Below, piece by piece: positions 5,443 to 27,133 of a stretch of DNA of 58,410 bases. The translations under genes and the position numbers were made by a program. The notes under the pieces are model-generated. The model searched no databases. It was given only the letters and a program-made list of their open reading frames with translations, and had not been told where the DNA came from. Source of the stretch: a virus; IMG/VR virus record IMGVR_UViG_3300035698_005597, positions 1 through 58,410 of that record, one strand, 5' to 3'. Position 1 is the stretch's first letter. Each line of letters starts with the position of its first letter.

Positions 5443-7416
5443 TTAGCCCACCATTCCAAAAAATTCGTCTTCACCCAATATAGTAACACCCAACTTCCGA
5501 GCCTTCACCATTTTAGATGATGTGCTATCAGGATCACTAGTCACAAGATAATCAAGATCTTTGTTCACTGATGATGCTGGTGTATGACCTTTAGAGGCTA
5601 TAAGAGCTTCAAGAGCCTTGCGTTTGTACCCTTTACCACTGTTAGGGTCAATTGTATTGAAACTGCCCGTGAAGAGGAACGTTTTACCATCAGAAGAGGC
5701 TATATCCTCTGTAATAATATTAACATACATATTCAATGTTACCATATCATCTCTAACAGCTTTTAATCCATCCACTATCAATTCAGCAGTAATATTTCCA
5801 ATACCATCTATGGTTGAAATATCATTCATTAAACAATAATCGTATATATAAGCAACAGGGGCATACGATGCGATATTATTGGTGAAATCTATAATCTTTT
5901 TAAATGTTCTGCTACCACACCCATGTATGTTCAACCCACCAAAGAAATCCATTAATTTCATATCTTTAGATGATTGTATTGCATTGTAGATCTTAGTTGC
6001 AGATTTTGTTTTATATCTTGACGATATCTTCATAATATCTTCAATAGTTAAAACGTATAATCCACACACATTAAACCCATCTTCATCATCTTTAATATAC
6101 TCAACATACGCTTCAAAAAACGCATCACCAACACCTTTAGAAGTCATACCTGATTTAGTTGCCCATTTCTTAACAGCACCAACAAACTTAGCAGGACACA
6201 CAGGATTAGTACACACAATATTTGTTGTCTTAGCAACTTTGAGTTGACCAAACATATCACTATCACAAACAGGACAATGTTGTGCCGGAGCATAAAATCT
6301 CTCATTACCAGATCTCTCTACAACTTCTTTTACCTGTGGGATGATGTCGTTGTTCTTCTGAACACGAATCGTATCACCTTTAGCGAATCCCCATTGAGTG
6401 AATATATCATAGTTGTGTATAGAAGCTCTACGCACGATTGATCCGTCAATTAGTGTTGGTTCAAATTCTACAACTGGGCAAAATGTGCCCGTAGAACCTG
6501 CTTGCCACACAACATCAGTTACAGTTGTTGTTTCAGCAATAGCATTGAATTTCAACGCAACCGAACCCCTAGGTTTGTTCCCATTAGCAACACCAAGACT
6601 TTCAACTTTCTTAATACTGTTAAATTCGATCACAAGCCCATCAATCATATACGGAAGATTCTTTCGTTCCCTATCAAGTTGTTCAGCAAGTGTTCTAAAT
6701 TCGAGATTTGTCATATCGACAAAAAACTCTACTACAGCATCTTCACCAAATATATATATAAGTTCACAAAGGATATTATCTTTCCACTCTGTAGTGATTG
6801 CCTCTCCTACCATATCATAATAATATACAGTGATGTATTTACGAAACGGTGAATCTGCTTTACGAGCGATACCAGCAACAGCATTTCTAGGGTTCGAGAA
6901 TTTATCATCATCTGATAATTGCGAATTTATAATCTCAAAATCAGCATAATGGATAACAAGTTCCCCACGAGCTGTAAATGGTGTAGTACAATCAACAGTT
7001 GTCGGGATATTACGGAATTCTGTTGGGTTTGGTATGTCCTCACCTATAAATCCGTCACCCCTCGTGGTAGCATATTTAAAGTTCCCGTTGTCATAGTCAA
7101 CTGCTACAGATATTCCATCCATTTTATATGAAGTTATAGTTTGACCTTGCTCTAGAAAACGTGTACATACATCATCTAAACCATTAACAACAGTATCATT
7201 AATCTTAATCTTTGATTGTGACCCCATAGCTATTTTATGTTTACGTTTATTGTCGCCCAATGCGGGAGCACCGACTGAGGCGAAATATTTGTTAGTAGGA
7301 TCGGTTGCTCGAAGCTCATCTTCAAGAGCATCAAACTCCGCATCACTAACTAACTCTTGTCTATTATAATACGCATCTTTATATTCTTTTAATCTAACAG
7401 CTAAATCGTTATCCAT
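5443..7416 (-). CDS. ligA: NAD-dependent DNA ligase
   Basis: 657 residues, near the usual 670 for bacterial LigA. The order is: Ia-like N-terminus (residues 1-55), adenylation domain with the nucleotide-binding lysine in YKMDG (Lys98), TTRGDGFIGED, ARGELV and NPRNAVAG, an OB fold (DVVWQAGSTGTFCPV, GDTIRVQKNNDIIP), a four-cysteine zinc finger (CPVC, then CTNPVC), a helix-hairpin-helix region, and a C-terminal BRCT domain (KTFLFTGSFNTID). It seals nicks in DNA using NAD. T4 itself has an ATP ligase, so this is a bacterial-type replacement. The start overlaps the previous stop as TAATG and has GAGGAA upstream. Confidence 0.97.
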   Translation of the reverse strand: MDNDLAVRLKEYKDAYYNRQELVSDAEFDALEDELRATDPTNKYFASVGAPALGDNKRKHKIAMGSQSKIKINDTVVNGLDDVCTRFLEQGQTITSYKMDGISVAVDYDNGNFKYATTRGDGFIGEDIPNPTEFRNIPTTVDCTTPFTARGELVIHYADFEIINSQLSDDDKFSNPRNAVAGIARKADSPFRKYITVYYYDMVGEAITTEWKDNILCELIYIFGEDAVVEFFVDMTNLEFRTLAEQLDRERKNLPYMIDGLVIEFNSIKKVESLGVANGNKPRGSVALKFNAIAETTTVTDVVWQAGSTGTFCPVVEFEPTLIDGSIVRRASIHNYDIFTQWGFAKGDTIRVQKNNDIIPQVKEVVERSGNERFYAPAQHCPVCDSDMFGQLKVAKTTNIVCTNPVCPAKFVGAVKKWATKSGMTSKGVGDAFFEAYVEYIKDDEDGFNVCGLYVLTIEDIMKISSRYKTKSATKIYNAIQSSKDMKLMDFFGGLNIHGCGSRTFKKIIDFTNNIASYAPVAYIYDYCLMNDISTIDGIGNITAELIVDGLKAVRDDMVTLNMYVNIITEDIASSDGKTFLFTGSFNTIDPNSGKGYKRKALEALIASKGHTPASSVNKDLDYLVTSDPDSTSSKMVKARKLGVTILGEDEFFGMVG

Positions 7417-11846: not shown

Positions 11847-11884
11847 AAAATAAGAAATAATTTCACTTTTTGATGGTGGTAAAT

Positions 11885-13288
11885 ATGAGCTATATATCGT
11901 TTCTTGGGGCTGTTAATGAAGTAACCGGAAGTAAGATAAAAATTGAATCTAGTAAATCGAATGTGTTATTAGATTGTGGTATGTATCAGGGACACAAAGA
12001 CGAGGCTTTTCTAAAAAATAAAGAATTCTCGGAAAATACACCCGAAGTTGATGCGTGTATCCTTTCACACGCGCACATAGACCACTCAGGAAGCCTCCCA
12101 ATGCTAGTTAAGAATGGTTATAGAGGTAAAATCTATTCAACACCCCCTACAGCCGATCTATGTAAGCATATGCTCAAAGATTCTGTTACTGTTTTCACCA
12201 AAGAACTACCTATAATCAATAAAATTCTAAGAAAAAAGAATATACCGTGTGTTGTGTCGCCGCTATACTCACTAGATGATGTTGAATCTTGTATTGATAA
12301 ATTTGTGCCTATACATTATGGTAAAGATGTTAAGATCAATAATACATTATCATTTTCATTTCACGATTCGTGTCATATCTTAGGTTCAGCATCAGTTAAA
12401 GTTAATGTTAAAGAATCTAGTGTAACACACAGAGTATGGTACACATCAGATTTAGGTCACGACTCATCATTATTGTGTGGTGAACCAAAACCGCCTGTTG
12501 ATATTGATTATCTAGTAATAGAATCAACATACGGGAATAAAAAACGAATAGAAGAAGATGTTAATCAAAAAGTGCTAGACTGTATCAATGATGCGTGTAA
12601 GCGTGGTGGTAAAGTGATTATTCCTGCTTTTTCTGTTGGTAGAATGCAAACTATGATTTTAATTATACATAAACTTCATATCATGGGGCTTATACCTGAT
12701 ATACCCATTTATGTTGATAGCCCTCTCGGTATTAAAGTTACTAGACTATATGAACAATATGACTACCAAATAAGAAATGATACTATAAAATTCTTCACTG
12801 ATAATGGGTTTGACCCATTCGAAGGACCGATGATAAAATATGTTGAAGATATGGAAGAGTCTAATAGAGTTTCATTGAGTTCTGAGAGAAGTATCATAAT
12901 TTCTGCATCGGGCATGATGAATGGCGGTAGAATTGTTGAACATGCTAAAAATACTGTGGGGGATAAAAACTCAACAATATTGTTTGTGGGGTATAATGCT
13001 ATTGATACTTTAGGAAGACGATTACAAGAAAATAATGGGAGTGTAACCATTAATGGTGAATCGTATAGAGTCCGTTGTAAGATAGAATCTATTAGCGGTT
13101 TAAGTGCCCACGCCGATTTGAACCAATTAATTACATATGTTAAACGATGTGCATCGTCCAACGCTATAAAAAAGATATTTCTAATTCACGGCGATGAAGA
13201 CGCTATACTAAATATGAAAAGAGTGTTAAACAATAAAGGTATAACCAATGTGGTTATACCTGAACTTAATAAAAAATATAAACTGTAA
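11885..13288 (+). CDS. Beta-CASP metallo-beta-lactamase nuclease
   Basis: 467 residues from the ATG at 11885; the family start MSYISFLGAVNEVTGS and a GGTGG upstream favour it over ATG 11873. Motif 2 is SHAHIDHSG (H62, H64, D66, H67), with SCHILGSASV and SDLGHD later. The beta-CASP part has PAFSVGRMQ and SASGMMNGGRIVEH, and the RMMBL end has SGLSAHADLNQL and LIHGD. This is the CPSF/YSH1-like class of RNA endo- or exonucleases. It is unusual in a phage and one of few plus-strand genes. It may process host or phage mRNA; that role is inference. Confidence 0.92.
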   Translation: MSYISFLGAVNEVTGSKIKIESSKSNVLLDCGMYQGHKDEAFLKNKEFSENTPEVDACILSHAHIDHSGSLPMLVKNGYRGKIYSTPPTADLCKHMLKDSVTVFTKELPIINKILRKKNIPCVVSPLYSLDDVESCIDKFVPIHYGKDVKINNTLSFSFHDSCHILGSASVKVNVKESSVTHRVWYTSDLGHDSSLLCGEPKPPVDIDYLVIESTYGNKKRIEEDVNQKVLDCINDACKRGGKVIIPAFSVGRMQTMILIIHKLHIMGLIPDIPIYVDSPLGIKVTRLYEQYDYQIRNDTIKFFTDNGFDPFEGPMIKYVEDMEESNRVSLSSERSIIISASGMMNGGRIVEHAKNTVGDKNSTILFVGYNAIDTLGRRLQENNGSVTINGESYRVRCKIESISGLSAHADLNQLITYVKRCASSNAIKKIFLIHGDEDAILNMKRVLNNKGITNVVIPELNKKYKL

Positions 13289-13292
13289 AATA

Positions 13293-13396
13293 TATAACTA
13301 TTGAAAATGAGAAGGACAGTGGATTGCAAGCCATTTTCTTACTGTTCTAAGAATTACTTCTCATTCTTTTCAACTAACTCGAACAGGAGTGACAAT
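13293..13396 (+). promoter_or_regulatory. Structured 5' leader of homing gene, copy 1
   Basis: TATAACTA (13293-13300), one base off the late box, is followed nine bases later by a three-way junction: P1 GAGAAG/CTTCTC (13309-13314/13357-13362, extendable by AT pairs), P2 TGG/CCA (13320-13322/13331-13333), P3 TTCTTA/TAAGAA (13336-13341/13348-13353) with loop CTGTTC. A 4-bp hairpin ACTC/GAGT (13377-13390) then covers the AGGAG of the ribosome site; its loop GAACAG is the exact complement of the P3 loop. The copy at 26105-26194 has the same layout with compensating changes. No known riboswitch or ribozyme class recognised. Confidence 0.75.
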
Positions 13397-14076
13397 ATGG
13401 GTAAAAACTTACCACAGAAGAATTTATAGAACGTGCCGTGTCGATACACGGGAATAAATATAATTATGCTAAATCAGAATATTATGGCACTGATGTTAAG
13501 ATATATATTTACTGTAACTCGTGTAAAAAATATTTCCCACAAGCACCATCCGACCACTTATGCGGTAAAGGATGCAAATCATGCGCCGTTATACAATGTC
13601 ATAATCGTCAACGATATGACACACAAACATTTGTAGAGAAGTCAAAACACACACACGGAGACAAATTTGATTATTCTAAATCAATATATGTCAATTCTAA
13701 AACCAAATTAACCATAATATGTGATGATTGTCATCACGAATTCACACAATTACCATCCGCACACTTGCGTGGATACAGTTGCCCTAAATGTGCATCTAAA
13801 TTAAGAATATCAAATAATAGAAATGATACATCATTTTTCACAACAAAGGCAATAAAAACACACGGTACGCGATACAAATACGATAAAGTATCATACATAA
13901 ACAACAAAACAAAAGTAGAAATATATTGCAATCATTGTAAGTCATATTTTTGGCAAAACCCTAAAACTCATATAAATGGTTCGGGGTGTCCTAAATGTGT
14001 ATCATCTAAAGGCGAACTACAAATCAAAAAATATTTGATTAAACATAATATTAACCATACACACCTCATAATTTAA
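13397..14076 (+). pseudogene. Decayed zinc-ribbon homing endonuclease gene
   Basis: The ATG at 13397 behind AGGAGT opens a frame that stops after ten codons. A one-base shift in the A-run (13402-13406 region) gives TTEEFIERAVSIHGNKYNY and continues open to 14076. The body has three repeats of the HGxKYxY...TKxxIxCxxCxxxFxQxPxxHLxGxGCxxC type (zinc-ribbon, DUF723-like). Compared with the intact paralogue at 26195, everything after SSKGELQIKKYLI is missing, so the nuclease domain is lost. It follows the metallo-beta-lactamase gene by a few bases. Best read as a dead homing gene with a preserved leader. Confidence 0.75.
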
Positions 14077-16003: not shown

Positions 16004-16219
16004 TTAATCCTCCAATTTGTTATATTTATCAGCAAACATTTTATGCCAACGATAAAATGGTATGAATGCTTTCCGAACATCGGATTTACTATTAAATGTC
16101 TTCATATCGTCATACATATCTTGTATTAAAAATACATAATACACAACAAAAGCCATTATTCCAACTACGAACGCTAAACCAAAAACGAAAGTAAAACATA
16201 CGTCCCAAACACCCATCAT
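16004..16219 (-). CDS. Small single-pass membrane protein
   Basis: 71 residues. One long hydrophobic stretch (about 8-31, FTFVFGLAFVVGIMAFVVYY) is followed by a charged C-terminal domain probably facing the cytoplasm. It overlaps the kinase stop by four bases and abuts the zinc-ribbon gene at 16003. It could anchor an operon partner to the membrane, which is inference. Confidence 0.6.
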   Translation of the reverse strand: MMGVWDVCFTFVFGLAFVVGIMAFVVYYVFLIQDMYDDMKTFNSKSDVRKAFIPFYRWHKMFADKYNKLED

Positions 16220-17910
16220 TTCATCCTCACAGAGTAAATTTTATTATCATCAACAAAACATGTATTCTTACCATCAACCAATTTCAAATGATTCTGTACT
16301 GTAGAGTTCTCGATAACTTTAGATCCTTTTTTAAAATCATAAAAGAGTTCAAGTTTTTCATCTTCAGTATTCAACACAACCATACCATTAGATTTAACCA
16401 TAACATTAATGTTTCTATAATTCACATTATTTTCAATTTTATGTTCATACTTATTAAAAGTATCATTGAACATAAACTTATGCAAGTCAACACCATTACT
16501 ATCGCCCGCCAACACAAAGAGCCATTTATCAACCCTCTTGGCATCATATATATGTTTATTCCCTATTTCATTTATAGCTACTGTTGAGCACCCATTATAC
16601 TCATAAGGAATAATAGCTTTATACTTACCATACAATTCTTGTATAACAACCCCATCATACATACTAGATGAGTTGATATTAAGAGTTGATATTGGATTAG
16701 GTATCATTTTAAGTTTACCTATCTTTTCAAATGAGTACTGAATAAGCCCTGACTCTTGCATGATGTATAGGCAATTATTAAACACACCATATGATTTATA
16801 ATCAACATTGTCAAACTTTTTAATTAAATTCTTATCTTCATCAAAAGCATAAAGAACATTATCCTTTTCGACTATCAATACAAATTCACCACTTGATGTT
16901 GATATGATCTTACCTCGATCTATACCTAAAGCAAAATCTTGTTTTTGTTTATCACCATAATAAAATCCATCAGTAGTTAATATATGATGAGCACCACTTC
17001 TCCAAAATGTATCAAGAATAGTTTCAGCAACCTCATAAAGTAGTTCAGCAAATACATTAGCATTCGGATCGTACACAACATTCTGAATAACTGCATAGTT
17101 GATAACACCATCAGAAAATGGAGGAATAGATCTTTCACCATCAACAAATATTTTCTTATACCACTCAAGATGAGCTTTTGGCATTCCTGTGAAGTTTACA
17201 AACTTTGGAACACTAACATCCTTATGGAATACAGATATGTTGTCCTTCATTCTAGAATCAAAATCATTCATTTTGTATCCTGCAATTTTTCCCTTGAAAG
17301 GGTGGATTCCAGTGTACATTTGAAAGGTCACTATAGCCCAACTAAACCAATCAGAATACTCGTTAAAGTCTCCTAGTGGTAGTGTTCTATCCCTAATCGA
17401 ATCCATGATAGCGTTGCACTTGTATGAAGGTGTCTGATAAGAATCTACATCGATATAATAAGGAATTTTAAATCCTTTATCAACTAGAAAATTCATTTCA
17501 TTATAATCACCCACAACAACACCAGCCTCGTGTACTTTTATGAGTGTATCCTGCATAGCCTTAACTAAGCTAACAATATTCTGAGGAGATATAGAATTTT
17601 GTTTTTTAAAGTTCGCTACAAATAATTTACACAAAAATTCGGTATCTTTAATATGTTTCATAACAAAACCAATACGCTTGTTATTTTTTGTGTCATATAT
17701 GGCGTGTGATGGTATGATAACATTAGATATGTTATTTAGTGATTGTAGTTCATCAATCTTATCTTCAGGAATAAGTTGAGCAGGGTCATGATATATCTTG
17801 AACACAGCATTATTCTTGGCATAGATGACACCCTGTCCACCTTGTGCGATATAATCCTTATCGGATAGTGTCACCTTTTTATTATTAACTAATACTGTTA
17901 TCGGTTGCAT
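16216..17910 (-). CDS. Ser/Thr protein kinase-like protein with C-terminal repeat domain
   Basis: 564 residues. N-terminal kinase fold: glycine loop GGQGVIY (24-30), ATP lysine in VFKIY (Lys38), catalytic loop VVGDYNEMNFLVD with Asp135 and Asn140, and metal motif DVD (154-156) instead of DFG. YIDVDSYQT and WFSWAIVTFQMYTGIHPFKG match the YegI-like kinases found with PP2C and vWA proteins. Residues about 300-564 form repeated beta strands, perhaps a propeller. The HRD histidine-arginine is replaced by VGD but the core Asp remains. Adjacent PP2C gene (18108-18938) is the likely opposing phosphatase. Confidence 0.82.
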   Translation of the reverse strand: MQPITVLVNNKKVTLSDKDYIAQGGQGVIYAKNNAVFKIYHDPAQLIPEDKIDELQSLNNISNVIIPSHAIYDTKNNKRIGFVMKHIKDTEFLCKLFVANFKKQNSISPQNIVSLVKAMQDTLIKVHEAGVVVGDYNEMNFLVDKGFKIPYYIDVDSYQTPSYKCNAIMDSIRDRTLPLGDFNEYSDWFSWAIVTFQMYTGIHPFKGKIAGYKMNDFDSRMKDNISVFHKDVSVPKFVNFTGMPKAHLEWYKKIFVDGERSIPPFSDGVINYAVIQNVVYDPNANVFAELLYEVAETILDTFWRSGAHHILTTDGFYYGDKQKQDFALGIDRGKIISTSSGEFVLIVEKDNVLYAFDEDKNLIKKFDNVDYKSYGVFNNCLYIMQESGLIQYSFEKIGKLKMIPNPISTLNINSSSMYDGVVIQELYGKYKAIIPYEYNGCSTVAINEIGNKHIYDAKRVDKWLFVLAGDSNGVDLHKFMFNDTFNKYEHKIENNVNYRNINVMVKSNGMVVLNTEDEKLELFYDFKKGSKVIENSTVQNHLKLVDGKNTCFVDDNKIYSVRMK

Positions 17911-18121
17911 CTTGTTCCTTTATCATTGAAATACTTTGATGTGGAATACCTACAATCATACCACAATTATCACACACACTCACTAACTCAAGAGATTCCC
18001 ATACACAGTTGATAACATCACACGCCGCCATAAATGTGATATCTACTATACCTTCACATTGAGCGCAAATCCCCTTTGATTTATCACCTTCTCTATATGG
18101 AATACTATTACTCGTACTCAT
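17885..18121 (-). CDS. YgiT-like zinc-ribbon protein
   Basis: 78 residues with CAQC near the N-terminus and VCDNCGMIVGIPH in the second half, the two halves of a zinc ribbon resembling YgiT/MqsA-type fingers. It overlaps the phosphatase stop by 14 bases and the kinase start by 26 bases, so it is locked between them. It may be an adaptor or substrate in the kinase/phosphatase pair. Confidence 0.6.
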   Translation of the reverse strand: MSTSNSIPYREGDKSKGICAQCEGIVDITFMAACDVINCVWESLELVSVCDNCGMIVGIPHQSISMIKEQDATDNSIS

Positions 18122-18938
18122 CTTCTTTTACCTCAACAATAATAGATGCTAATGATAGATCATCATAATGCTGAATATTATTCTTTGTATTACGATGAAG
18201 ATACATATTCATTTTACGTTGGACAAATTCGCCCTTAGTATTTTTATAATTAAGCACATCATCTATAATAGAGTCGAATTCTATTCTATCGTCACCCTTA
18301 TAAAATGATTCCATACCATCAGACATAATACTGATAGCGTGTCTGCCTACACCAAAATCTGTAAGACCCCACGAATTATAATGCGCTTCATCATTTGTGA
18401 CGTGTTCCTCAACAGAAATATTCGAACCACAATCAATAACACACTCATCTTTGAATTGATCCAAATATATCTTTCGTAACGTATAATTTTTACTATAATT
18501 AAAATAATATGGTGCATTATATGGGTATTCATAATAATGATCCATTGTCATACCGCCAGGACTTTTATAAACAATATGTCCATCGCCATATTGGATTGTG
18601 TGAATTGTGTTATCAACTATCACAGCCACCAATAGTGTAGCATCCAATGCTGAATCATTAAGCTCTAATGCTCGTGCCATACTTTTATAGTAAGAAACAA
18701 AGTCTGTCATAATAGATTCATAATGAAATGGTCCAACTAATAAATCATTTAACGTCAGCATCATCGATCTAACGATGATTCTAGCTCCTATATCGGTGTC
18801 CTTACTACCTGAGCACCCATCAGACAAAATAATGCATGGATACCTATCTAAAATCAATCCTGACCAAGCATAATCCTCGCACACTTTATGCCCTGACCCC
18901 ATTTTAAACATATGATCGATACTAATAATATTTTCCAT
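18108..18938 (-). CDS. PP2C-family serine/threonine phosphatase
   Basis: 276 residues with PP2C motifs in order: VCEDYAW (metal Asp22), ILSDGCSGSKDTDIGAR (Asp40-Gly41), LLVAVIVDN, YGDGHIV, SIMSDGMESF and DDLSLASIIV. It dephosphorylates Ser/Thr residues using two metal ions. The gene shares an operon with the kinase at 16216 and small zinc ribbons. This grouping, with vWA proteins elsewhere in the window, recalls TerY-P triads. Confidence 0.85.
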   Translation of the reverse strand: MENIISIDHMFKMGSGHKVCEDYAWSGLILDRYPCIILSDGCSGSKDTDIGARIIVRSMMLTLNDLLVGPFHYESIMTDFVSYYKSMARALELNDSALDATLLVAVIVDNTIHTIQYGDGHIVYKSPGGMTMDHYYEYPYNAPYYFNYSKNYTLRKIYLDQFKDECVIDCGSNISVEEHVTNDEAHYNSWGLTDFGVGRHAISIMSDGMESFYKGDDRIEFDSIIDDVLNYKNTKGEFVQRKMNMYLHRNTKNNIQHYDDLSLASIIVEVKEDEYE

Positions 18939-18940
18939 TA

Positions 18941-19438
18941 TTATTCTCTCTCCAAGATCGCGCCTAGTATACCCGAAGCATAATCCACAACATCTCCGTC
19001 TGATTCAACACATTCATCCCTAGTCTTTAATTCTGATTTCTTAACAACATGCTCATCAAACGGTTCTGTTAACATCTCATTAGCATAATCCCTAGTATAC
19101 ATAACATTAACATAATACAGTAAAGAACACTTCATACACTTACCAACAGCGGTCATATCTATAACATGTGGTGAAATCTCTACTGATGGTCTTGAGTGCG
19201 TAACTCTATCGTCGTGAGGCATATGGGATGCAGTTTCTACAAGATGTTCACACACTTGTGTCTGAACATCTCTTCTAAGGTATCGCTCGTTATTAATAGC
19301 CTTAGCCTCGTCACCAGTAGGGATATAAGATACTATACTAGCATCAACCGCTTCTGTTGCCGCACTGACAATAGATTTTATAATAGATTCCCCGTGAGTC
19401 TTGATAGCATCTATTTGTGATTTTGTGAATTCGCTCAT
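18941..19438 (-). CDS. Protein with AVGKCxKCSLxYYxNV zinc motif
   Basis: 165 residues. N-terminal helical part (1-75), then HMPHDDRVTHS and TAVGKCMKCSLLYYVNV, paralogous to the 15674 product, and an acidic C-terminus. First gene of the operon, preceded by AAAAGGA and the promoter at 19481-19509. Probably binds zinc; no known family. Confidence 0.6.
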   Translation of the reverse strand: MSEFTKSQIDAIKTHGESIIKSIVSAATEAVDASIVSYIPTGDEAKAINNERYLRRDVQTQVCEHLVETASHMPHDDRVTHSRPSVEISPHVIDMTAVGKCMKCSLLYYVNVMYTRDYANEMLTEPFDEHVVKKSELKTRDECVESDGDVVDYASGILGAILERE

Positions 19439-23887: not shown

Positions 23888-26071
23888 TTATATTTTAACG
23901 TTTTCGCTTCCAAGCTCGAATGTGAATAACCACTCATCATAAGTGATTGTTTTATCATCGCGAGTTTCGAACTCGTCAAACCACTTTGACGTTAACACGA
24001 TGGCAAACTTAGTTTTTTGTATACCCGAACGGATACCTTTTTGTTCCGATTTAAGTTTTGCAATCTCTTTGTTAAGCCAAAGTTTACGTATATCTTCATC
24101 ATCAGTAGTTGTTTTAAAATCATCATATTTGACGATCCCAACTTCAACAACAGATTCAGATAGAGTTCTCTTCTTACCCGCTGAAATTTTATCCTTAACC
24201 TTTTTAACAGCAGGAATTGATGAAAGACCTTTTATCTTAATATCGAATTTTTTTGCGACATACACATCAGTCGATTCCACAGGATCAACTTTAGGACTGT
24301 ACGAACCACCCTTATCGACATTAACGCCATTAGCTTCAAGGAACTCTTTCTGTTGATCTGTAATCAACTTAGCCTCGAATACACTAGAATCTTCAAATTC
24401 GTTTTTGAGATAATCTTTAAGTGCTTTTACTTCGCCATTAATTTCATTCTCACGCTTAATCAATTTGCATAACTCTGTGGCAGAAGTGTTACCCTCAGCT
24501 ATAGCTCTATTGATAGCAGGAAGTTGGGAAATATCTAAACCATAAATACCATCACAGTCAAAATCATCCCCATCATCAATGACAATACCTTTAGCTTCAA
24601 AATATTTCTTAGTTTCCATACTTGTAGAAACATAGAATTTTTTAACATTGATAATACCATCTTTAATAAATGTATAATTTCTAAATACAAATACAGGATA
24701 ATTATCAGTAAGACCGACATCTGAAGCTGTAGTATCTTCAACATCTTTAAGATCTATAGATCCATTAATAACAGCTCTAACACTCAAATTCAAGCGATTC
24801 TTATGCCACACAAGATCATCCATAGCGCATTCAGCATTATCCTCAGCAACAAACTTAGCATAATCGCCATTAACTACTGTAGGTTTACTTACTTTGTTAT
24901 AGACAAACCCTTGATGATAAGGATAAAATGATGCATCATCATCCTCCATAAGTCTGTTAAGAACATCAAAAACACAGAAAGCATCAACAGGGGGGAGATA
25001 GTTAGAATCGCGACCATCCATAAAACGCACAGAGTTGTGCTTAATAGCCTGTTCTATCTTAGCTTCTACCGTCCCATACTCTTCTATAGTAAACGCGTTT
25101 GTTATACCATCTACGAGCCTCTTATCACCTAATTTACCGATAATCTCAAGAGCTACATCAGTTTTCATTTTCTGAGTTAAAACCAAAGCAGATGCATATA
25201 ATGCTGTCATCAACTGACTATCATCATTGAGATTCTCCATCGGAATACAATTATCTCCAACAGGAGCTGTATTAGAAACATAATATATTGATGTTCGTTC
25301 ACCTTGTGGCGACACATTAACAAAACCTGTTTCTTCATCGACACTAGATATAACAATACCCTGATCAGTAATTGTGAATACCGCAGATGGGTTATCTATA
25401 GGGGGTAAAATGTCCTGTTTAGGTGAAGCTGTGCCACTAAGTTCTAACAAACGAGTAATACTATCAGTGTATTCAGAAATCATGCTACTATGAATGAGCA
25501 TCGCTCCTGTGCGTTCAGCCATATCGGTTAATAACTGTTTATTGTAATAATTCCCATATGCTACGTACATAGCTGATGATAATTTCCCCTTTATATTATT
25601 AATAGCATTAAAAATATTGGCAATTTCTTTTTGATAATTAGACACCACAGGATATCCGTCGGTAAAAAAGTGAAATGAAAATGTATCCGAATATACTGAT
25701 AGATCTTCAATAACCCCGTCAACATCCGATAGTATTTCAGAAAAACATGTAAAACCGATAGTATCTGAGTTTTTTTGAATAGCCCTCGCTAACATATCAT
25801 AATCCGATTCATCAGAAATCTTAAATCCTTTAAGTATAAACCTCCGCGTGCCCTCAGAACTAAACCACCCTATAGTTAGGGTATCCCCTTTTGGAATTTG
25901 CTTTGTTAGCATTATCATTTGTGTGGTCAAATTTTTAAGATGATTCCACATGGAACCCGATCTATCGTATATCCATATATGATTAACAGGATTACGAGTT
26001 TCAACTACCTTTTCATTTTTAATAGTTTGCTCTACAACGAAAAGTTCATCACCAACTTTAACATAAGACAT
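23888..26071 (-). CDS. Large von Willebrand factor A domain protein
   Basis: 727 residues. The N-terminal vWA domain (about 30-225) has the MIDAS motif WIYDRSGSMWNH, the conserved threonine region SDTIGFTCF and FHFFTDGYP. The remaining 500 residues have no clear domain; the C-terminus is lysine-rich (KKVKDKISAGKKR) then ends in a beta segment. Metal-dependent protein binding is expected. A second, smaller vWA protein is at 33621. Single-gene unit ending in a terminator; its upstream region is shared with the homing gene at 26195. Confidence 0.82.
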   Translation of the reverse strand: MSYVKVGDELFVVEQTIKNEKVVETRNPVNHIWIYDRSGSMWNHLKNLTTQMIMLTKQIPKGDTLTIGWFSSEGTRRFILKGFKISDESDYDMLARAIQKNSDTIGFTCFSEILSDVDGVIEDLSVYSDTFSFHFFTDGYPVVSNYQKEIANIFNAINNIKGKLSSAMYVAYGNYYNKQLLTDMAERTGAMLIHSSMISEYTDSITRLLELSGTASPKQDILPPIDNPSAVFTITDQGIVISSVDEETGFVNVSPQGERTSIYYVSNTAPVGDNCIPMENLNDDSQLMTALYASALVLTQKMKTDVALEIIGKLGDKRLVDGITNAFTIEEYGTVEAKIEQAIKHNSVRFMDGRDSNYLPPVDAFCVFDVLNRLMEDDDASFYPYHQGFVYNKVSKPTVVNGDYAKFVAEDNAECAMDDLVWHKNRLNLSVRAVINGSIDLKDVEDTTASDVGLTDNYPVFVFRNYTFIKDGIINVKKFYVSTSMETKKYFEAKGIVIDDGDDFDCDGIYGLDISQLPAINRAIAEGNTSATELCKLIKRENEINGEVKALKDYLKNEFEDSSVFEAKLITDQQKEFLEANGVNVDKGGSYSPKVDPVESTDVYVAKKFDIKIKGLSSIPAVKKVKDKISAGKKRTLSESVVEVGIVKYDDFKTTTDDEDIRKLWLNKEIAKLKSEQKGIRSGIQKTKFAIVLTSKWFDEFETRDDKTITYDEWLFTFELGSENVKI

Positions 26072-26090: not shown

Positions 26091-26194
26091 TATAAATAAT
26101 AATAATAAGAAGGACATCGGTGTTCGAACCCGTTTCTATGCTATTCCATAGATTACTTCTTATATATTCAAATTAACTCGAATAGGAGTTCATA
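26091..26194 (+). promoter_or_regulatory. Late promoter and structured 5' leader of homing gene, copy 2
   Basis: TATAAATA (26091-26098), then nine bases later the same three-way junction as at 13293: P1 AAGAAG/CTTCTT (26107-26112/26156-26161), P2 CGG/CCG (26118-26120/26130-26132), P3 TCTATG/CATAGA (26135-26140/26147-26152) with loop CTATTC, joints GACAT, TT and TTA. Hairpin ACTC/GAGT (26176-26189) holds AGGAG; its loop GAATAG is the exact complement of the P3 loop. Relative to copy 1 all three stems and the loop-loop pairing change in a compensated way. Confidence 0.78.
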
Positions 26195-27133
26195 ATGAGT
26201 AGGATAAATTCTACTACAAAATTCTGCATTCGCGCATCAAAAATACACCATAATACATATGATTATTCTAATGTAAATTACATCAAAACAACATTAAAAG
26301 TTGATATAATTTGCCCCGAACACGGGAAATTCTATCAAACCCCGGCATCACATTTAAGGGGGGCTGGGTGTCCATCCTGTCACAGATCCAAATTAAAATG
26401 TGTGTTAAGTGATACTATACACCAATTTATTAATAAAGCTAATATAGTACATAACAATGCATACAATTACACAAAATCCGTATATGTTAACTCCAACACC
26501 AAAATAATAATCGTATGCCCGATTCATGGGGAATTCAAACAAAAACCCACAACCCACCTCCAAGGTGGTGGGTGTATATTATGTGGTAATGATCGCGCTA
26601 CTAATGCCACCACATCAAATACCCAAGAATTTATACACAAATCTAATATCATACACAATTATACCTATGATTATTCAAACTCGACTTATATTAAATCGTA
26701 CATAAAATTAATTATTATTTGTAATAAGCATGGGAAATTTGAACAATCCCCTAATAAGCATCTATCTGGTCGTGGGTGTCCTCATTGCTCAGAATCTAAA
26801 GGCGAAAAATGTATTAGATATTGGTTGGTTTCTAATAACATCCCCTTTATCAAAGAACATATATTCGACACCTGTACCGATGTTCGAGGTCTACCTTTCG
26901 ATTTTTACATCCCAAACGATAACACATGTATTGAATTTGATGGGAAACAACACTATGAACCATTGGATTTTCGTGGTAACACAGATCCATCAGAATTGCG
27001 CGAAGCATTCAACACCATACAATACCACGATAGAATTAAAACTGAATATTGTATAGATAATAATATTTTGTTATTAAGAATACCCTATTGGGAATATAAT
27101 AATATCGGTAACATTCTTACAGAAAAAATATAA
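26195..27133 (+). CDS. Zinc-ribbon homing endonuclease with Vsr-like nuclease domain
   Basis: 312 residues. Three repeats of about 60-70 residues (HHNTYDYSNVNYIKTTLKV, CPEHGKFYQTPASHLRGAG, CPSC and so on) form zinc-ribbon DNA-binding modules. From about residue 200 comes SESKGEKCIRYWL and the nuclease core LPFDFYIPNDNTCIEFDGKQ, then YHDRIKTEYC and LLLRIPYWEYNN, the pattern of the Vsr/EDxHD-type domain. It is an independent plus-strand insertion between the vWA and endolysin genes. The paralogue at 13397 is broken. Regulated by the leader at 26091-26194. Confidence 0.88.
   Translation: MSRINSTTKFCIRASKIHHNTYDYSNVNYIKTTLKVDIICPEHGKFYQTPASHLRGAGCPSCHRSKLKCVLSDTIHQFINKANIVHNNAYNYTKSVYVNSNTKIIIVCPIHGEFKQKPTTHLQGGGCILCGNDRATNATTSNTQEFIHKSNIIHNYTYDYSNSTYIKSYIKLIIICNKHGKFEQSPNKHLSGRGCPHCSESKGEKCIRYWLVSNNIPFIKEHIFDTCTDVRGLPFDFYIPNDNTCIEFDGKQHYEPLDFRGNTDPSELREAFNTIQYHDRIKTEYCIDNNILLLRIPYWEYNNIGNILTEKI

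Follow-up and report, generated by a model that had tools for sequence, protein, structure and literature searches.

Homing genes of T4 and Aeh1 are preceded by RNA structures that sequester the ribosome binding site (RBS), and this sequestration limits I-TevI and mobE (PMC2988022, PMC3014915). A review of T4 mobile elements counted the way in which translation of homing endonucleases is controlled among the areas of ignorance, and described only individual hairpins, in T4-like phages (PMC2988022). These hairpins, which precede I-TevI, I-TevII, I-TevIII, segB and Aeh1 mobE (PMC2988022, PMC3014915), are the nearest known counterpart of the leader RNA that is analyzed in this paper, but they are simpler. 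Our element resembles them in being a leader of phage homing endonuclease genes that would hide the Shine-Dalgarno sequence, in the presence of a late promoter nearby and in its association with both intron-encoded and freestanding genes. Unlike the T4-type leaders, which are individual stem-loops, it has one architecture (a junction, an L3-L4 contact and a palindromic L2 loop) that is common to unrelated nuclease families, and its late transcript is predicted to retain the fold.

Other described RNAs share single features with the leader. The SAM-II and preQ1 riboswitch classes are translational and hold the Shine-Dalgarno sequence in a pseudoknot. As in these classes, the conserved core of our leader is compact and one of its loops is predicted to pair with the Shine-Dalgarno region, but there is no Rfam match and the genes are mobile nucleases. 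The purine riboswitch is built on a three-way junction in which L2 and L3 kiss each other. The leader also combines a three-way junction with a loop-loop contact, yet here L3 would kiss a downstream hairpin, L2 is self-complementary, the junction sequences differ and cmscan gave no match; purine riboswitch identity was rejected, since L3 is complementary to the leader, L2 to itself, and no Rfam family matches. The phi29 packaging RNA is a structural RNA in its own right, and its two complementary loops differ from each other. It has in common with our element a phage origin, a junction and intermolecular kissing loops (PMC7357161), the last of which are only proposed for the leader, and the leader is part of an mRNA. 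The HIV-1 dimerisation initiation site (DIS) is also a 5' leader element, with a 6-nt palindrome in a hairpin loop of 8-9 nt that often has a purine on each side (PMC7357161), and the L2 loop is similar to it in these respects. It differs in that it is found in a phage mRNA, that its palindrome changes from copy to copy, that it is joined to a module predicted to sequester the Shine-Dalgarno sequence and that its dimer is only predicted.

The window that we analyzed, a virus record of 58,410 bases, contains two copies of the leader, at 13307-13390 (copy 1) and 26105-26190 (copy 2), and all of their features are on the plus strand. The fold of both is a three-way junction (P1-P3) and a P4 hairpin. 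P1 closes the junction, the joints are GACA, TT and TTA, P2 bears L2 and P3 bears L3, while P4 is located about 12 nt downstream of the junction, holds AGGAG and has a loop (L4) that is the exact complement of L3. In copy 1 the P1 5' strand (13307-13314, ATGAGAAG) pairs with 13357-13364 and is followed by the GACA joint (13315-13318). The P2 hairpin TGG/CCA (13320-13333, arms 13320-13322 and 13331-13333) has the palindromic L2 ATTGCAAG, with TTGCAA at 13324-13329, and the P3 hairpin TTCTTA/TAAGAA (13336-13353, arms 13336-13341 and 13348-13353) has the L3 loop CTGTTC at 13342-13347. After the TTA joint (13354-13356) and the P1 3' strand comes P4, ACTC/GAGT (13377-13390, arms 13377-13380 and 13387-13390), with L4 GAACAG at 13381-13386 and AGGAG at 13385-13389. 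In copy 2 the P1 5' strand (26105-26112, ATAAGAAG) pairs with 26156-26163, and the GACA joint of the pattern match is at 26113-26116; the P2 hairpin CGG/CCG (26118-26132) has the palindromic L2 TGTTCGAAC, with GTTCGAAC at 26122-26129, the P3 hairpin TCTATG/CATAGA (26135-26152) has L3 CTATTC at 26141-26146, and P4, AACTC/GAGTT (26175-26190), has the complementary L4 GAATAG at 26180-26185 and AGGAG at 26184-26188. The 3' strands of P1 are supported by pairing and covariation in both copies.

Most of this architecture had already been described in a sequence-only reading: the junction followed by a hairpin over the RBS, the kept joints, the perfect L3-L4 complements in which a G-C pair of copy 1 becomes A-U in copy 2, and the compensated stem changes (GAGAAG/CTTCTC to AAGAAG/CTTCTT, TGG/CCA to CGG/CCG, TTCTTA/TAAGAA to TCTATG/CATAGA). 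All of these are present in both copies, and the sequences and coordinates given for them were verified as well. The same reading took the covariation as strong evidence for RNA function. Homologues bear this out, but the two copies alone are weaker evidence than was claimed, with single-copy folding only modestly better than that of shuffled sequences (z -1.6 and -1.9 for the two leaders). As these folding energies are unremarkable, the case rests on homologues. The joint pattern gave two matches in the window and none in 100 shuffles.

The covariance-model search that had been proposed for further leaders was run, and homologues with a common fold exist. A model made from both window copies (R1) found no leader at any of 67 viral homologues of the window nuclease, so that a protein-guided search would have missed the family. 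Among loci retrieved with a loose DNA pattern R1 gave three strong matches, and tighter patterns led to many more. A core-only model (R2; P1-P2-P3, without the Shine-Dalgarno region) recovered 88 distinct cores from viral contigs, of which a few are doubtful. A held-out scan added 17 good ones. R1 and R2 matches in viral contigs have E-values of 1e-8 to 1e-19 (30 of 30 records re-searched), and a single 224-kb record carries up to eight copies. Based on these matches, dozens of further phages from the environment have the same predicted fold before unrelated mobile nucleases. The GACA and TTA joints are kept in the family, but the search patterns fixed GACA, UU and UUA and therefore this invariance is partly imposed.

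No convincing copy was found in any named phage (INPHARED) or cellular genome (GTDB). Eleven core sequences used as queries had no match in INPHARED, and full leaders gave 38 weak matches (E 0.1-4), of which the one examined, in Maribacter phage Panino, falls within a coding sequence of opposite orientation; INPHARED also contains no near relative of the window. In GTDB genomes 11 pattern matches were obtained; with R2 they were weak, their E-values being no better than 0.003, and they were taken as chance, and re-search of four of these genomes found nothing. The element is thus mainly viral in appearance, within the limits of one pattern. With Rfam 15, no covariance model matched in the window at the curated threshold, no family covered the element at nine loci with E up to 10, and at 40 further loci only adjoining group I introns and tRNAs were seen. 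This agrees with the earlier reading, in which no known riboswitch or ribozyme class was recognised. The leader was nowhere described in the literature that we searched, and one 2017 motif paper was outside its scope.

Every helix is backed by controls. An alignment of 63 sequences is 90.5% paired, and its covariation score of 0.70, compared with 0.21 after shuffling and 0.10-0.18 after sliding, was obtained on members that had been filtered for pairing; the covariation is strong across homologues, and the element thus passes those refuting checks named in the sequence-only reading that sequence can address. Because of this filter, three independent tests weigh more. The first is a pattern that leaves P1 unconstrained: among its 41 distinct matches, all five P1 pairs form in 27 and four of five in 12, while the pair counts peak at 2-3 in a control with exchanged arms. 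The second regards the closing pair at the P1 base, which the search patterns had forced to be G-C. A few R2 matches had an A-U closing pair instead, which led to the prediction that A..U occurs and A..C is absent, and a held-out scan gave 23 matches with A..U and none with A..C. P1 pairs in 17 of the 18 distinct A-U matches that were parsed, the variable P2 base pair forms in all 18, and L3 is complementary to the leader in 15 of them (null 6.8, maximum 12). The third is the complement of L3 across the family, which is given below. The null tests, by swaps and shuffles, ignore phylogeny and kinship among members. In one P3 subtype (L138, L201, L208, L264, L274, L301 and others) GAAA faces AGTA, an arrangement that resembles the internal loop of the bulged-G (loop E) type; L3 is beyond this site.

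One can ask if the leader has any RNA function, as chance similarity, or flanking DNA that hitchhikes with a homing gene, could also produce two similar copies, and both copies in the window do precede related genes. We consider this extremely improbable, since the helices are kept by compensation, the held-out prediction included, unrelated genes are preceded by the same fold and the closest relatives of the window nuclease have no leader.

The pairing of L3 with the Shine-Dalgarno region can be judged separately, as the R2 core model does not contain that region and the L3 complement is outside what was modelled. In 68 of 77 members the leader contains a stretch of 6 nt or more that is perfectly complementary to L3, with 5.7 expected when partners are swapped (maximum 13 in 500 rounds), and L245 is a further case. 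The complement mostly ends about 8 nt before the start codon, and it therefore overlaps the Shine-Dalgarno sequence. P4, with at least 3 bp around the complementary segment, is found in 56 of 71 members (20 expected, maximum 31), which justifies the original description as a loop-loop contact that takes in Shine-Dalgarno bases. In L231, and possibly in L300, it is L2 and not L3 that matches the Shine-Dalgarno sequence or a downstream segment. The leader of these phage homing endonuclease genes is thus predicted to pair the Shine-Dalgarno sequence internally, and we infer that it gates, and lowers, the translation of its gene.

The L2 loop varies in sequence yet stays self-complementary (TTGCAA, TTCGAA, GTCGAC, TCATGA, TAGCTA, GAATTC, TAATTA and others). 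A perfect palindrome of at least 6 nt is present in 21 of 40 distinct L2 loops, against 2.8 in shuffled loops (maximum 9 in 2000 shuffles), and in only 1 of 82 loops of the control, L3. Eight of the 40 have no palindrome of even 4 nt, and many others have 4 nt only; in a second A-U subgroup L2 is GTAGCTC, in which the palindromic part is AGCT. An intramolecular extension of P2 was rejected as the source of the palindromes: it would leave the two middle bases in a loop too short to exist, and these bases would have no need to complement each other. As a hairpin is unable to pair its own central bases, the natural reading is that two molecules pair, and the compensated palindromes, in which a DIS-like apical loop appears to be kept self-complementary, suggest kissing homodimers. 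ViennaRNA gives an extended homoduplex of -16.9 kcal/mol against -2.8 for the monomer in copy 1, and of -21.1 against -2.7 in copy 2, values that are not kissing-loop energies. Copies in the same genome share a palindrome center in 2 of 41 pairs, where 7.3 are expected (P 0.027); the different palindromes per genome, as if cross-pairing was avoided, are suggestive only. Dimerisation of the leader in cells, and the sign of its effect, are put forward here as a hypothesis.

Another option is that the palindromes, as RNA or as DNA, are the binding site of a phage or host protein, for example in self-regulation by the nuclease. It is known that I-TevI represses its own promoter (PMC2988022), and it is common for a leader RNA to bind the product of its own gene. 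Yet an identical L2 loop, GTTGCAAA, is found upstream of unrelated proteins, while copies in one genome have different palindromes, so neither one common factor nor protein-specific sites explain the data easily, and P1, P3, L3 and P4 covary as RNA. We regard such a site as improbable.

A promoter seems to be linked to part of the family. Copy 2 is preceded by a T4-type late promoter box, TATAAATA, at 26091-26098 (plus strand), and copy 1 by a late-promoter-like box, TATAACTA, at 13293-13300 (plus strand), with one mismatch to it. In 19 of 87 members, where 0.45 are expected, a [TC]ATAAATA motif has its end 9-16 nt upstream of the closing G of P1, most commonly 12-14 nt upstream of this closing base; across the whole window TATAAATA occurs 26 times against 20.5 expected, with no significant enrichment. 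The usual spacing of T4 late promoters, from box to transcript start, puts the start near the P1 edge. From the position of the boxes the predicted start is therefore at the outer edge of P1, and in copy 2 it is at about 26104, at the first base of P1.

This position bears on a timing switch of the T4 type, in which the nuclease is silenced only on read-through transcripts while its own late transcript escapes. The arrangement is established for I-TevI, I-TevII, I-TevIII, segB and Aeh1 mobE (PMC2988022), and late-type boxes adjoin our element as well. However, the I-TevI late transcript is made without the 5' arm of the hairpin, whereas here the predicted late transcript keeps most of P1 together with the complete P2, P3 and P4. 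A late-type box is missing from many members, and some members are found just behind group I introns. A switch of this kind is rather doubtful.

The sequence-only reading placed the leader before a zinc-ribbon homing gene. This holds for copy 2, which precedes an intact zinc-ribbon (DUF4379/DUF723) homing endonuclease gene (26195-27133, plus strand, 312 aa; phrog_559, E 6e-70), but the gene of copy 1 (13397-14076, plus strand) is a broken remnant. Its frame is broken near an A-run at 13402-13406: from ATG 13397 it stops after 10 codons, and the open frame at 13438-14076 has no nuclease domain. A programmed frameshift was set aside for copy 1, as that open frame also lacks the domain. An intact leader thus stands before a decayed gene, and likewise in L138, before a 34-codon remnant. 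The earlier observation is confirmed as right and its extent is larger than first described; the palindromic L2, the late-type promoter at the P1 5' edge, the unrelated nuclease families, the group I introns and the dead gene of copy 1 had been overlooked.

The genes behind the leaders belong to PHROG homing-endonuclease families, with the Pfam domains GIY-YIG, HNH, LAGLIDADG_3, NUMOD and DUF4379/DUF723, and there are two TnpB-like proteins (L305, and L195 below the curated cut-off). Four leaders precede replication-initiation or primosomal proteins (L227, L317, L322 and L239) and three precede DUF5055 proteins (L277, L291 and L231); with these seven members before non-nuclease genes, nuclease control is not the sole use of the leader. 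On a nuclease tree, the forks of which are weak, the leader is scattered, with seven changes, and the nearest relative of the window nuclease does not have it. Based on this distribution the leader appears modular. In at least five loci (L341, 1212-1474, and L356, 1197-1480; L344, 1636-1901, L337, 1588-1865, and L232, 713-1079, minus strand) the leader follows the end of a group I intron at a distance of about 20-80 nt, and the leader-nuclease unit seems to exist both freestanding and within the 3' portion of introns. In the viral contig L072 (1-7864) three zinc-ribbon homing genes are interspersed with other genes, which resemble glycosyl- and methyltransferases; the leader precedes two of the homing genes but not the third. 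In L314 two copies with late-type boxes (1256-1323 and 5983-6050) have no recognised gene or Shine-Dalgarno sequence behind them and their L2 ends in ACCTCA; this is possibly an orphan noncoding form.

The range of genes also bears on a riboswitch, in which the conserved junction would bind a small molecule or ion, the L3-Shine-Dalgarno pairing would be the expression platform and L2 pairing would be secondary. Translational riboswitches typically combine conserved joints between variable helices with a Shine-Dalgarno platform that resembles a pseudoknot, and replication-initiation and DUF5055 genes besides nucleases would suit a signal of infection state. The genes have no common metabolic theme, though, and none of the Rfam riboswitch classes matches. 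Conservation is limited to a small core of about ten bases in joints and closing pairs, in part imposed by the search patterns, and the palindromes are left unexplained, so that we find a riboswitch unlikely.

A more probable mechanism, in which we have reasonable confidence, is that the element acts in cis as a portable 5' leader RNA and damps the translation of phage mobile nuclease genes, with L2 pairing of transcripts proposed as its adjuster. The fold, the L3-Shine-Dalgarno pairing, P4, the L2 palindromes and the gene association are all supported by sequence comparison. The three-way junction of P1, P2 and P3, with its joints GACA, UU and UUA, would hold L3 against the loop of P4, and the Shine-Dalgarno sequence would be buried twice, in its 5' part by L3-L4 pairing and in its 3' part within P4. 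Through the L2 palindrome, usually of 6 nt, two copies of one transcript would be able to kiss, and this kissing may stabilise the closed state as the transcript builds up, leading to a low nuclease output that limits itself and needs no protein repressor. The late-type promoter of T4-like members would start the transcript near the beginning of P1, so that the fold is kept in the gene's own transcript. Since the I-TevI late transcript escapes its structure and the one here should not, the level has to be set in another way, by a trigger or by damping that is constitutive. As trigger we prefer L2-L2 pairing, with a junction ligand, possibly a small molecule or a protein, as the main alternative. 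In its fullest form, which we offer tentatively as one possibility, the mRNA would sense itself: nuclease transcripts would count their own concentration via L2-L2 homodimers, the dimer would set Shine-Dalgarno access, and a palindromic address for each copy would make this feedback protein-free and copy-specific; the feedback would have spread among nuclease families that are unrelated.

The leader is a widespread RNA class absent from Rfam, and its presence before unrelated mobile nucleases suggests a common need for low nuclease output. If the L2 pairing is true, the leader would represent a natural case of mRNA regulation through homodimerisation with a changeable address, and a compact part for RNA engineering.

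Other genes in the window may be mentioned. At 16004-19438 and 23888-26071 (minus strand) a PP2C-like phosphatase (PF13672) is found beside a kinase-like protein and small cysteine-motif proteins, with a von Willebrand A-like protein farther off; this recalls TerY-type phosphorylation triads, in resemblance only, and the kinase-like and von Willebrand A-like proteins have no Pfam match. Upstream of copy 1, at 11870-13288 (plus strand), the virus encodes a beta-CASP/RMMBL metallo-beta-lactamase protein of the CPSF/RNase J kind (Pfam PF10996, PF07521).
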